A DNA stretch of 30,384 bases, taken from positions 1 to 30,384 of the IMG/VR virus record IMGVR_UViG_3300006919_000264; one strand, written 5' to 3'. This DNA comes from a virus. The notes under the pieces were generated by a model. The model had not been told where the DNA came from. It searched no databases and saw only the letters and a program-made list of their open reading frames with translations. The translations under genes and the position numbers were made by a program. Of the stretch, positions 3,350-21,716 are shown piece by piece. Numbering within the stretch: the first letter of the stretch is position 1; each line of letters starts with the position of its first letter.

Positions 3350-4390
3350 TCACCAAGCCCTATTAAGAATATGTGTTCTGCTCTCTCCCAAGCCAGCGCT
3401 GGTCTGCATCACGAACTCAGAACTAGCGTGTAGCTCAGGAATACTGCGTGCGCCACTATACGATAAGCCTGACCGAAGACCTCTCTCTAGACTCTTAAGA
3501 ATCTTGGTGACAGAGCCCCGGTATGGTACACGTGCAGAAACTCCTTCGTGAGAAGAATACTTGCCACGCCAGCTAATTTGTGCTTCCTTACTTGCCATCC
3601 CTCGATAAGTCTTCCATCGAGTGCCATCAGCTTCTTCAAAGACATTACCCGGTGTTTCATCTGTGCCGGACAATATTGAACCACACATGATACAATCTGC
3701 ACCAGCGGCGAGGGCTTTTACCATATCGCCGGAGTTTCTTATACCACCATCAGCGATAATCGTAACATCGCGATCGGTCTCCGCACAATCTAAGACTGTC
3801 TGTAGACCAGCAACCCCGTGTCCGGTTTCGATCCTTGTTGAACAGATAGAGCCGCCGCCAATGTTACAGCGCACGGAATCAGCACCCCAATCAGCAAGGT
3901 CATTAATACCCTCAAGAGTGGCGATATTGCCAGCCATGATATGTAACTCATTACCAAAAGCACTTCTTAGTCTGTGGAGCGCATCCTTCGTTAGGATATG
4001 ATGCCCGTGAGCAACATCAACACACAGAAAATCAACACCCAAGGCATTCATGACAGCGGCTCGATTGAGGTAATCGCCGGTAACACCAATGGCAGCCCCC
4101 ACAATAATGTCAGTGTTGTGATCATCCATGGCAATATTCTTAGCCAAACTAATGATGTCAGCTTGTTCTTGGATAGTATTGTATCTGTGTACAATGGCAG
4201 CACCACCGTAGACACCGACCGAGACCGCCATGGCGGCTTCAGAGATAGTGTCCATGGGAGAAGCCAAAATTGGAACCTTTAACAAAAGACCGTTACCTAA
4301 ATCAACTTCCGTTGATACTTCAGATCGCGATCGAATGTCGGAATATTGTGGTACCAGCAATACGTCGTCGTATGATAATGATTTTTTCAT
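3350..4390 (-). CDS. IMP dehydrogenase / GMP reductase family enzyme without CBS domains
   Basis: This 346-residue TIM barrel opens with LSYDDVLLVPQYSDI, typical of the family. The active-site loop GGGSICSTRIETGHG carries the catalytic Cys183. Phosphate-binding ADGGIRNSGD and GADCIMCGS follow, then EGVSARVPYRG, GLRSGLSYSGA and EFVMQTSAGL near the end. The CBS pair of ordinary IMP dehydrogenase is absent, giving the length of GMP reductase. The mobile flap lacks the RY pair of IMP dehydrogenase and reads GKYSSHEG, closer to the GMP reductase pattern. The C-terminal AGLGES is more IMPDH-like. It acts on IMP, XMP or GMP with NAD(P) and would alter purine pools in the infected cell. Start ATG 4390 overlaps the preceding stop as ATGA. 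Confidence 0.92.
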   Translation of the reverse strand: MKKSLSYDDVLLVPQYSDIRSRSEVSTEVDLGNGLLLKVPILASPMDTISEAAMAVSVGVYGGAAIVHRYNTIQEQADIISLAKNIAMDDHNTDIIVGAAIGVTGDYLNRAAVMNALGVDFLCVDVAHGHHILTKDALHRLRSAFGNELHIMAGNIATLEGINDLADWGADSVRCNIGGGSICSTRIETGHGVAGLQTVLDCAETDRDVTIIADGGIRNSGDMVKALAAGADCIMCGSILSGTDETPGNVFEEADGTRWKTYRGMASKEAQISWRGKYSSHEGVSARVPYRGSVTKILKSLERGLRSGLSYSGARSIPELHASSEFVMQTSAGLGESRTHILNRAW

Positions 4391-4761
4391 AATGCCACCC
4401 TGTTTAAAAAATTGCAAATGTCACTGACCCGATACCAAGTTTTATCATTTGGATCCTCTGGTTCAGGAAGTAAGTGTAGCTTTGGTCGTCTATCTGAGAT
4501 GTGTGTATTCACAACAAAAATAGTCGGCACACCCTTAAATCTTAGCTTGTCTTCCAACTCAGGATAGTCGTCGATATTGTATGCAAAGAAGTGCATGTCT
4601 TTATATTCTTCTTTATTTGAGACATCTACAAAATAGTCCTTTAGATTGTGACAAAGGTGACAATTGTTAGAGTAAAACTTTAACACAAATGTGGAATTTT
4701 CTTTAATGTCGCCGCGCAATACATTATCAAGTGCATCACGCGAAATTCTAGTTACTGCCAT
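4387..4761 (-). CDS. Thioredoxin/glutaredoxin-like protein with CHLC active site
   Basis: This 124-residue protein has the thioredoxin fold pattern: a strand FVLKFYSNNC leading to C34-H-L-C37, a central strand FFAYNIDD, and the cis-proline loop KGVPTIFVV near residues 76-84. The active site is CHLC rather than the CGPC of thioredoxin. It could reduce the class II ribonucleotide reductase encoded at 16144-18111 or other phage proteins. That link is inferred, as the two genes are not adjacent. AAGGAGG lies upstream of the ATG at 4761. It overlaps the zinc-ribbon gene by 14 bases. Confidence 0.85.
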   Translation of the reverse strand: MAVTRISRDALDNVLRGDIKENSTFVLKFYSNNCHLCHNLKDYFVDVSNKEEYKDMHFFAYNIDDYPELEDKLRFKGVPTIFVVNTHISDRRPKLHLLPEPEDPNDKTWYRVSDICNFLNRVAL

Positions 4762-7391: not shown

Positions 7392-7420
7392 AGTATAACA
7401 CCATGGGAGAGAGGAGTCAA
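7392..7420 (-). promoter_or_regulatory. Sigma-70-like promoter with TG-extended -10
   Basis: TTGACT at 7420-7415 and TATACT at 7397-7392 are 17 bp apart, and TGT directly precedes the -10. The TGA stop of the J-domain gene lies within the -35. The spacer contains CTCCT, which can pair with the AGGAG ribosome site at the head of the next gene in read-through RNA. Predicted start is near 7385. Confidence 0.82.
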
Positions 7421-12176: not shown

Positions 12177-13061
12177 TTAACCCTCCGAATTAGTATATGG
12201 TATTGTAACATGCTGTCGGGGTCTTGTCAACTCATCCAGGGGCTTATTTATCGAATACTTTGAAGAAATATAATCGGCATAGCTATCCCAGCGCGATACG
12301 TCAAAATACCACTCTAATTCAATTTCTGTTCTTTGTTGTGAGCCTAAAGGCTCGTATATATCACTTAAAGTAAAGTGACGAGCGGACCACCTCTCGTGAA
12401 GCGGGAGCTTCTGGGATGGATACTGCTGGTTTGGTAAAGGGGGTAAATACTCCCTTGTTGTCTTTTTGTTTATCGCTCTTCGGCATTGTTTAAAGTCTTC
12501 TCCTGTCATGGTGAATGGCAGATATTGGTTGTTTACCACACTCTGTCCATTATGAGTAAAAAATAAATTCTTGGTTTTGTCGCGAATCAATTTCCGATGT
12601 TGTCTTATAAAGTAGATATCAAAAACCCCAAACGGAAAAGAAATGTAGTATTTTTCCGGTGTTAGCCATTTGGAGATTTTGTGAGAAGTCATATAGGCAG
12701 CATGGATGCCTTCTATTATTGACCAGCCGTAGCTATCTCTTTTATTTTGATCCTTGGGTTTGATTCCGACGTAATAAATAGGTATCTCTTTCCTTAATTG
12801 TGAGTAAAATTTAGACTCTAGGTCTCTTTTGTAATATACTGGGTCATATACCCAGTCGCCAACAGTCTTTCTTATGATTGGTGCGAGGTCGTCATTAGCC
12901 ACAATCCATATTGTATTACAACCAGCCATGGCGCACTCATGCACCGACTTCTGTATCAGGTTGAACCCATCACTAATAGGCATAAGCAACTCTGGAAATG
13001 ATACTTCCAATTCTGCCTTGTAATTAGCAATTGGTATTATACCGCTAAGGTGAAGTGACAT
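12177..13061 (-). CDS. Divergent nucleotidyltransferase-like protein
   Basis: This 294-residue protein begins LHLSGIIPIANYKAELEV, followed by FPELLMPISDGFNLIQKSVHECAMAGCNTIWIVANDDLAPII. That is the strand-loop-helix order of sugar-phosphate nucleotidyltransferases (NTP_transferase), but the glycine-rich GxGTR loop is absent. Later DSYGWSIIEGIHAAY and YYISFPFGVFD continue a mixed alpha/beta fold. I recall similar proteins in marine phages without a known activity. It overlaps the Rossmann-like gene upstream by 17 bases and abuts the polymerase gene. A role in modified nucleotides or glycosylation is possible but unproven. Confidence 0.75.
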   Translation of the reverse strand: MSLHLSGIIPIANYKAELEVSFPELLMPISDGFNLIQKSVHECAMAGCNTIWIVANDDLAPIIRKTVGDWVYDPVYYKRDLESKFYSQLRKEIPIYYVGIKPKDQNKRDSYGWSIIEGIHAAYMTSHKISKWLTPEKYYISFPFGVFDIYFIRQHRKLIRDKTKNLFFTHNGQSVVNNQYLPFTMTGEDFKQCRRAINKKTTREYLPPLPNQQYPSQKLPLHERWSARHFTLSDIYEPLGSQQRTEIELEWYFDVSRWDSYADYISSKYSINKPLDELTRPRQHVTIPYTNSEG

Positions 13062-19539: not shown

Positions 19540-20508
19540 TCAACACGACAATAAAATTTTATTGAGGTGTGTTTTGAGATCTTCCCAGTTAAGTTCACCG
19601 AAACCATCCTCGGTCATAAGTGAGAGTATCTTAGTTTTATTAAATGTGCAGTCAAAGTTTTCAATGGACTCTTGCACAAACTTTTTAGCTTGAACTGAGA
19701 GTAGAGGTGCGTACAACTGCATCATTTTATAATTATGTGAGATAAGTCCTTTCCCCTCGATGATGTTGCTAAAAAACTTCAATTTACTGTCCGCTTTTTC
19801 GCAGAAATCTACTAACTCGTTGATAGTATAGTCTTTTTCCGAAGCGAGAAAAGACAACCTTTTTTTGACCGAAACTAGTCCGGCACCTTTGATCCCTGGT
19901 AGGTTGTCTGAGGCATCTCCGACTATCGCCCTTGCCAATGCCATGTTTGTAGGGTGTACACCATATTCTTCAATGATCCGCTTCTTGTTCATCAGCTGAT
20001 CGCTCGTTGGTCGATATACAACAGTCTCATCATCACACAACTGTAGGAAGTCCTTATCATTGGATATGATGACCTTTTGCCAGCCATCATAGCGGCTCAT
20101 CCTAGACGTAAACGAGATCACATCGTCCGCCTCAATTTCAGGCAACATGAGTTGAATAATTGGCATCTCATTGAAGTAATCAACAACGCGAGATTGCTGC
20201 CATATCTTGTTCATAACGATTTGGTCATCTGTGAGGTTATGCACCGACCTGTTTAGTCTCAGGGGCTTTCTACCCTCTTTATAACTCTTATCGATGCTCT
20301 TACGCTTAGCCGAGCCATTTGGTCCATCCCAGATTACCAAGATTTCATCTGGCTGCGTCATTCGCACTAGCTTTTGCATAATCTTAATCGTGCCCTTAAT
20401 GCCACCGATCGGATCTCCATTCGTTGACAAAGAAGGATCCACGATATACGCTCGAATAAACATATTTAATGCGTCAATGATTATGACGCGCTTTCTTTCA
20501 GTACTCAT
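19540..20508 (-). CDS. 5'-3' exonuclease of the FEN / T4 RNase H family
   Basis: This 322-residue protein has the family's acidic sites: IIIDALNMFIRAY (Asp12), VIWDGPNGSAKRK, PEIEADDVISF and IISNDKDFLQL. A helix-three-turn-helix follows with GDASDNLPGIKGAGLVSVKKRL. It removes RNA primers and 5' flaps during lagging-strand synthesis. The start at 20508 is preceded by GGAGGG, which is also the 3' arm of the terminator stem, followed by seven T residues and then the ATG. The ribosome site is therefore masked in read-through RNA but free in RNA from the promoter at 20560-20532. Confidence 0.94.
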   Translation of the reverse strand: MSTERKRVIIIDALNMFIRAYIVDPSLSTNGDPIGGIKGTIKIMQKLVRMTQPDEILVIWDGPNGSAKRKSIDKSYKEGRKPLRLNRSVHNLTDDQIVMNKIWQQSRVVDYFNEMPIIQLMLPEIEADDVISFTSRMSRYDGWQKVIISNDKDFLQLCDDETVVYRPTSDQLMNKKRIIEEYGVHPTNMALARAIVGDASDNLPGIKGAGLVSVKKRLSFLASEKDYTINELVDFCEKADSKLKFFSNIIEGKGLISHNYKMMQLYAPLLSVQAKKFVQESIENFDCTFNKTKILSLMTEDGFGELNWEDLKTHLNKILLSC

Positions 20509-20551
20509 AAAAAAACCCTCCGATTGATAATATTATAACCAACCGGAGGGT
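20509..20551 (-). terminator. Terminator after recA, masking the next ribosome site
   Basis: ACCCTCCG (20551-20544) and CGGAGGGT (20522-20515) make a perfect 8-bp stem around a 21-base loop that can add three more pairs. Seven T residues (20515-20509) follow, then the ATG. The 3' arm is the ribosome site of the exonuclease gene. A promoter -10 lies in the loop. Confidence 0.83.
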
Positions 20552-20560
20552 CAAAGTCAA
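20532..20560 (-). promoter_or_regulatory. Strong sigma-70-like promoter nested in the terminator
   Basis: TTGACT at 20560-20555 and TATAAT at 20537-20532 are 17 bp apart. The predicted start near 20525 is past the 5' arm of the terminator hairpin, so its RNA escapes termination and has a free GGAGGG site. Confidence 0.85.
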
Positions 20561-20570
20561 GCACTTTTGT

Positions 20571-21716
20571 TCATTCTTTTATTGGAACCGAAATATCTTC
20601 CGGATCCTCGTAATAAGTGCTAGCATCGCCTTGTCGCTTATCAAACTTCTGCACAATCTCTTCATCCATAATCTGGATTACTTTGTTCTTGAACTCTTCG
20701 TCTGAAGTTACAAGGCTGGTCCATTTTGAAGGCTGGAACTTCTTAGTGTATCCATCGGGCATTGACAGTGTATACCAAGCTCCTGCTGATGAAAGGTGTT
20801 CGCAGCCCTTAATAGCATCGAACCACGATTCTTCATCACGAATTCCAACATCTTCAGTCCCCCACATGATACGGAAGGCACACGACCTGCCTTGAGTCCC
20901 AAAACGGGATTTCTCAAGCTTTACCTTAACTTCGGAGCCAATGCGGAAACCCTTTTCATCTTCAATAAAAGCAGACTTAGCCTTTCGACCGGTCAACCAA
21001 ATACGAAGTGAATAAGCATAGTGCATTGCCTTACCACCAGGGGTGATATAAGGTGTAGTCATAGCGATTTGTCGCGCCATCGGACCTTGTGGGATGTTTG
21101 TCTTCAATTGGTTCAATACAATGAAAGTTGCTCGCTTATCAGCAATGGGAATAACCAACTTGGACATACCCTTTGCTAAAATACGAGCCTTCACTGCCAT
21201 TGAAGACTGTGGGTTGAAGTCTCCTTCAACGTCCGAGATTGATGGCGTGAATGCCAAAGAATCCCAGATAAATACAAGCTGCTCGTCGGTTGCTCCAAGA
21301 AGTTCTTCAATAGTCTCAAGGACAAACTCCACAGAAGACGCCTGAACGTACATTAAACGCTCTAGGTTGCATCCTGCTCGCTCCAAGAACATCGGGTCGA
21401 TGGCAGACTCCGAATCGAAGTAAACGACCATCTTGCCCTCTTTCTGGGCGTTTGCTGCAATCTGCACAGCCATGTATGATTTACCAGTTGCTTCAAGTCC
21501 GGCAATCTCGGTGATCTTGCCAACCGGAATACCGGCAACTTTACCCTTACAAATAATAGAATCCAACCAACGTGATCCCGTTGGAATCCATTCCTTAACA
21601 GAAGTCGGGTTATCTCCTGTTAAGTCGTGAGCCACATTCTGACCCGCTTTCTTATTTACCAGTTTCATTAGGTCTTGCATATTTACACGACCTGCCTTTG
21701 CTTTCGCTTTAGCCAT
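20571..21716 (-). CDS. recA: RecA/UvsX-type recombinase
   Basis: This 381-residue protein has Walker A GLEATGKS (73-80), VVYFDSESAID, Walker B LVFIWDSLAF, the DNA-binding loop 1 region DVEGDFNPQSSMAVKAR, and FIVLNQLKTNIP followed by TTPYITPGGKAMHYAYSLRIWL for loop 2 and the core end. It forms filaments on single-stranded DNA for strand exchange and recombination-dependent replication. The basic MAKAKAKAGR start is typical. AGAGGAG precedes the ATG. It is the first gene after a promoter whose spacer is a palindrome. Confidence 0.96.
   Translation of the reverse strand: MAKAKAKAGRVNMQDLMKLVNKKAGQNVAHDLTGDNPTSVKEWIPTGSRWLDSIICKGKVAGIPVGKITEIAGLEATGKSYMAVQIAANAQKEGKMVVYFDSESAIDPMFLERAGCNLERLMYVQASSVEFVLETIEELLGATDEQLVFIWDSLAFTPSISDVEGDFNPQSSMAVKARILAKGMSKLVIPIADKRATFIVLNQLKTNIPQGPMARQIAMTTPYITPGGKAMHYAYSLRIWLTGRKAKSAFIEDEKGFRIGSEVKVKLEKSRFGTQGRSCAFRIMWGTEDVGIRDEESWFDAIKGCEHLSSAGAWYTLSMPDGYTKKFQPSKWTSLVTSDEEFKNKVIQIMDEEIVQKFDKRQGDASTYYEDPEDISVPIKE

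Follow-up and report, generated by a model that had tools for sequence, protein, structure and literature searches.

A predicted insulated promoter, set in a terminator-like hairpin that pairs with the next ribosome site, is kept at the end of recA in uncultured phages

We studied a record from an uncultured virus, 30,384 bases long (the whole stretch analysed, called the window here), and found, between a recA-like gene and an exonuclease gene, a promoter whose spacer and −10 hexamer lie in the 5′ arm and loop of a stable hairpin, with the ribosome site of the exonuclease gene in the 3′ arm. From its sequence and conservation this element is probably an insulated promoter, which would terminate or translationally silence RNA read through from recA and start a short, translatable mRNA of its own. 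Promoter activity, termination, translational silencing and any timing difference are what we infer from the features described below. The likely genes of the window are on the minus strand, and the features of the junction are as follows.

20571..21716, minus strand: RecA/UvsX-like recombinase, 381 aa, the upstream gene (PF00154, E 1.3e-35; phrog_97, UvsX-like)
20555..20560, minus strand: −35 hexamer TTGACT (promoter score; every relative in alignment A2 keeps TTGAC)
20538..20552, minus strand: hairpin 5′ arm GACCCUCCGGUUGGU, carrying the anti-Shine–Dalgarno (anti-SD) sequence, within the promoter spacer (RNA folding, spacer–leader duplex)
20532..20537, minus strand: −10 hexamer TATAAT, in the hairpin loop (promoter score; TA...T invariant in A2)
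20529..20537, minus strand: hairpin loop UAUAAUAUU, 9 nt, opening with the −10 (RNA folding)
20524..20526, minus strand: predicted transcription start, A at 20525 (placed 7 nt past the −10)
20514..20528, minus strand: hairpin 3′ arm AUCAAUCGGAGGGUU (RNA folding; pairing kept with covariation)
20516..20521, minus strand: SD sequence GGAGGG, 7 nt 5′ of the ATG (SD pairing probability)
20509..20515, minus strand: T7 tract, putative terminator U-tract and SD–start spacer in one (sequence; T-enrichment in relatives)
19540..20508, minus strand: FEN-like 5′-3′ exonuclease, 322 aa, the downstream gene, ATG at 20508 (PF02739, E 2.5e-27; phrog_107)

The recA stop codon is followed by 10 nt, TTGACT, a 17-nt spacer, TATAAT, a leader ending CAATCGGAGGG, T7 and the ATG. 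The promoter (TTGACT-17-TATAAT, 20560–20532) scored 11/12. Both hallmarks of an intrinsic terminator are present: a stable, GC-rich stem-loop at 20552–20514, 18 nt past the recA stop (15 bp; minimum free energy −23.2 kcal/mol, z −6.95; 0 of 200 shuffles equally stable), and a U-tract directly past the stem, T7 in the window. No Rfam family matched within the window at gathering score.

An earlier, sequence-only reading had described this junction, and its observation is confirmed. As it stated, the −35 (20560–20555) lies 5′ of the 5′ arm (20552–20538), TATAAT (20537–20532) is inside the loop, occupying the start of its 9 nt (20537–20529), and the GGAGGG ribosome site in the 3′ arm (20521–20516) is followed by seven T residues (20515–20509) and the ATG at 20508. 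The CCCTCCG/CGGAGGG pairing that it noted is the core of a stem that is in fact longer, at 15 bp, and the 50-base element that it outlined at 20509–20560 is real, with its whole extent corrected to about 20560 (the −35) through 20508. Folding of both transcript forms, which it had proposed as a check, also came out as it expected: read-through RNA retains the full hairpin, and the predicted local RNA, starting at about 20525, has a 17-nt leader lacking the 5′ arm (fold −7 kcal/mol, z −0.29), so that the hairpin cannot form there. The SD is predicted to be paired with a probability of 1.0 in read-through RNA versus 0.13 in local RNA.

Relatives were gathered in IMG/VR first through the exonuclease and then through a recA profile, the latter adding 80 further loci (kept out of 564 as the nearest by recA); the recA loci numbered 101, with 87 distinct junctions, 83 of them evaluable. 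In 63 of these 83, an SD-masking hairpin surrounds a sigma-70-type promoter downstream of recA, a count made up of 59 found by script, minus L015 (relabelled as a terminator with a separate SD), plus L001, L005 and L048 (each with an element that exactly matches another one in the set), L083 (which has the hairpin but an ambiguous start codon) and L074 (a copy 1.6 kb downstream). Five of the remaining junctions had a terminator and a separate SD, nine had either an unrelated promoter or one at which masking was not strong, and six had nothing, several recA loci being without any element.

Among the exonuclease relatives, clade A kept promoter, hairpin, 3′-arm SD, T-run and start, all with changed letters. 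Clade B (L015, L016, L017 and L031) kept promoter, hairpin and T-run and has a separate SD past the U-tract, so that no mask of the window's kind is required there; L064 kept terminator and promoter, also with a separate SD. L103 and L120 retained the promoter with little pairing, as did L014, which keeps only the promoter. The composite occurs across the recA tree (FastTree, with many weak branches), with the SD in the 3′ arm across most of it, and the hairpin arms are varied (22 clusters below 83% identity). This spread suggests that the composite is probably old in this phage group, with repeated losses. No DNA-level relatives were found among named phages (protein-level identity at most about 33%), and no relatives were found in bacterial genomes.

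The gene behind the element changes from relative to relative. In L005, L008 and L010 the element stands directly past recA and 5′ of an ORF of ~65 aa, in L019 it is 5′ of a pyrimidine-dimer glycosylase-like gene, and in L020, L022, L023 and L024 it is 5′ of a dCMP-deaminase-like gene. Behind 62 tabulated promoters were dCMP deaminase (33), exonuclease (13), UvdE-like UV endonuclease (9) and Pyr_excise (2) genes, the rest being small or single ORFs; no fewer than four unrelated kinds of gene (the exonuclease being FEN-like) thus follow the element. The element belongs to the recA end and not to the exonuclease, staying with recA while the next gene changes. In some 25 loci recA and the element are separated by a small gene. 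A His/Pro-rich, secreted-looking ORF of ~100 aa was seen between recA and the composite in L022 (about 4185–4516), L023 (4638–4958; no Pfam match), L024 and about 20 other loci. Just past recA in L109 there is an extra inverted repeat (TTGACACAT ... ATGTGTCAA), in which the −35 itself pairs with sequence around and past the start codon.

The pairing carries signs of selection, and of selection on RNA. In figures that sequence relatedness inflates, mean SD pairing with bases 5′ of the predicted start was 0.86 at 75 promoter hits near the recA end (including some overlapping hits on one element) versus 0.29 at 100 other hits in the same loci, the spacer–leader duplex reached −17.6 kcal/mol versus −5.4 in controls, and, when spacers were swapped between elements, the own spacer was in the best 5% for 32 of 62 versus 6 of 60 controls. 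The spacer-shuffle z, subject to the same inflation, was −3.66, compared with 0.03 in controls. Alignment A2 had two-sided changes at 12 of 13 pairs and a covariation score, likewise inflated by relatedness, of 0.423 versus 0.234 in shuffles, slid registers reaching at most 0.217. In the AGCCCTCC group (A3), covariation was no higher than in shuffles because the 3′ arm barely varies; nearly all changes there are one-sided on the 5′ arm and preserve G.U pairs. With registers picked by Watson–Crick pairs alone, the non-Watson–Crick positions comprised 22 G.U, 1 A.C and 4 others. A dyad acting as DNA gives no reason for G.U to outnumber A.C, so this asymmetry points to a constraint on RNA rather than on a DNA operator and, taken with the 22 arm clusters, argues that relatedness is not the whole cause of the pairing signal.

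The promoter type throughout the relatives is TTGACW-17-TATAAT. In A2, where mean column identity is 57%, TTGAC and TA...T are invariant. Of the 59 masked elements, which were selected for spacers of 16–18 nt, 56 have a spacer of 17 nt and the other three one of 18 nt. As the main search used the promoter pattern, a promoter-blind scan was added: up to 520 nt from the recA end it gave 55 strong SD masks, 52 of them with a promoter (counted at a score of at least 9/12), versus 2 of 43 elsewhere. Among 137 promoters tested in the loci, few strong pairings occurred outside the recA end, and only one of these (L074) is another true copy. The sigma-70-like reading presupposes a host polymerase of that type.

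The window abounds in promoter-like sites (93, from two overlapping scans). A weaker look-alike at 7420–7392 (minus strand) consists of TTGACT, a CTCC-rich spacer, TATACT and AGGAGG before a small gene, and is also present in a near relative at L036:370 (duplex −13 kcal/mol) and absent in G002; another weak look-alike lies at 12230. These are not conserved in relatives; on this ground, and on the scarcity of strong pairing among the 137 promoters away from the recA end, genome-wide use of the device was rejected.

The gap between SD and start was 70% T and 9% A in the elements, versus 23% T and 44% A at control promoters of the same phages, which favours a selected U-tract. Clades A and B have long T-runs (T5–T8), and L019, L020, L022 and L023 have short ones, so that termination may be weak in these four; SD pairing persists despite the short U-tract in L020, L022, L023 and, partly, L019. 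In direct junctions the hairpin begins 6–24 nt past the recA stop. When an E. coli terminator stood 5 bp past a stop codon, its efficiency fell from ~90% to <10%, due to ribosomes, and 10–15 nt of free mRNA is deemed enough for hairpin folding (PMC4824070). Leaky termination near a translated recA would account for the retention of a second lock, on translation.

A further promoter–terminator overlap lies at 2030–1976 of the window (minus strand), where TTGACA-17-TATAAT runs into AAATAACCAC-CCAGC-GTGGTTATTT and a T-run, with the SD past the T-run and outside the hairpin. Similar overlaps were seen at G002:47994 and G003:7250, and in all three the predicted start is in or near the 5′ arm. Terminator-like hairpins without an embedded promoter occur at other gene junctions of the window (23756–23733 and 14529, both minus strand).

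The sequence-only reading had further interpreted the junction element as a terminator, a mask for read-through RNA and a promoter for a clean mRNA in one. Conserved features in relatives match each part and support this interpretation, the functions themselves being predicted: hexamers and 17-nt spacing are kept for the promoter, spacer–SD pairing is kept with compensatory changes and wobble for the mask, and for the terminator the tract past the hairpin is T-rich, whereas starts in these phages are usually preceded by A-rich sequence. In the mechanism that we propose, a sigma-70-like, host-type RNA polymerase coming from recA would transcribe both hairpin arms, and the hairpin with U7 would release part of the recA-derived transcripts by intrinsic termination. 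RNA that reads through would keep the hairpin, with its SD hidden, and would not yield exonuclease. Polymerase initiating at the −35/−10, with the 5′ arm as spacer and the −10 as loop, would make RNA from about 20525 that has no 5′ arm, would neither terminate at the junction nor hide its ribosome site, and would be translated. If only this local RNA is translatable, expression of the downstream gene would depend on its own promoter alone, whether or not recA is transcribed.

A wider proposal, to which we give slightly less than even chances, is that of a new class of regulatory element in phages, a lineage-wide, recA-linked 'read-through lock'. A single RNA hairpin would terminate transcripts, mask the ribosome site and enclose a sigma-70-type promoter; it would stay in place as one DNA-repair or nucleotide gene replaces another behind it, and ribosomes reaching the end of recA might adjust its action.

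Alternatively, recA could simply end in a normal intrinsic terminator, one GC-rich arm of which doubles by coincidence as the next gene's ribosome site; the promoter would be there to save space, and masking would have no regulatory role. Clade B and L064, which retain terminator and promoter with a separate SD, would fit this reading, as would the overlap at 2030–1976 of the same genome with its SD outside the hairpin, the SD–start spacer that is T-rich throughout, and the hairpin without an SD in its stem at the recA–exonuclease junction of the distant Microcystis phage Mel-JY01. We nevertheless consider this unlikely, as SD pairing is kept where the U-tract is short (L020, L022 and L023; partly L019), the SD lies in the 3′ arm across most of the recA tree and promoter-bearing strong SD masks are almost confined to the recA end. 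The 6–24-nt distance from the recA stop, and the ribosome effect on the E. coli terminator 5 bp past a stop (PMC4824070), could also suggest coupling to recA translation, in which the ribosome finishing recA would open or prevent the hairpin, leading to read-through and re-initiation, so that the downstream gene is made while recA is translated. This is very unlikely: the gap in the window, 18 nt, exceeds the 10–15 nt of free mRNA that suffices for folding (PMC4824070), another gene separates recA from the element in about 25 relatives and a conserved internal promoter would be unnecessary.

A dyad spanning the −35/−10 region is in a usual place for an operator, and the inverted repeat might be read as the DNA site of a dimeric repressor overlapping the promoter, with RNA pairing incidental. 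That is highly improbable, with arm sequences that differ greatly among relatives, the SD on the 3′ side of the transcript and a T-rich tail, and we rejected it on the 22:1 ratio of G.U to A.C at non-Watson–Crick positions. Chance could create such overlaps where CCTCC/GGAGG and promoter-like motifs abound, as in this phage, and the 93 promoter-like sites and the weak look-alikes at 7420 and 12230 speak for it. These look-alikes are not conserved, whereas the junction element is conserved with covariation in relatives, an outcome that counts as refuting chance; we give it almost no credence.

If the insulated-promoter reading is right, one compact element would do the work of terminator, insulator, promoter and ribosome site together, across dozens of lineages of uncultured phages, and it offers a ready-made design for insulated gene expression. 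With its place beside recA fixed and its neighbours changing, one can test directly why read-through from recA has to be silenced.

The element resembles an intrinsic (Rho-independent) terminator in its GC-rich stem and the U7 directly past it, termination here being predicted, and differs in that a promoter is embedded in it, across spacer and loop, and that its 3′ arm carries the ribosome site of the following gene. Open-access literature yielded nothing pertinent to a promoter within a terminator, and an earlier description may exist elsewhere. SD-sequestering riboswitch and RNA-thermometer leaders likewise fold into a hairpin whose 3′ arm hides the SD; here the position of the transcription start, not ligand or temperature, would decide, and the active mRNA would never have the 5′ arm. 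The nearest named phage with the recA–exonuclease gene order, Mel-JY01 (about 32–33% identity), has a terminator-like hairpin at this junction but no SD in the stem.

The nearest known systems are the T4 e, soc, 49 and I-TevI leaders, segB and Aeh1 mobE, with an RBS-sequestering hairpin and an internal late promoter. In T4 genes e, soc, 49 and I-TevI and their relatives, RNA started upstream hides the ribosome site and RNA from the internal late promoter frees it, with a 100-fold effect cited for gene e (PMC2988022, PMC3014915). As in these leaders, the SD is paired in upstream-started RNA, here by prediction and conservation, and the 5′ arm is missing from RNA that starts at the internal promoter, here with a predicted start and the arm in the promoter spacer. 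The T4 late promoter is gp55-dependent (TATAAATA in gene e), whereas the element has a −35 and −10 with the 17-nt spacer as 5′ arm; the gp55-type late promoter was looked for at the element and not found, TTGACW-17-TATAAT being present throughout. As the promoter class is not T4 late, we say that the element 'works like' the T4 leaders and do not class it as one, and no sequence kinship with them is known. It also differs from them in that its U-tract would make the hairpin a terminator too, its position is fixed past recA and it serves DNA-repair and nucleotide genes, not the same one in every relative. If the element works as proposed, the T4 trick of hiding the ribosome site extends beyond the late genes of T4-like phages and is used there with promoters of host type, in the service of DNA repair and nucleotide genes.
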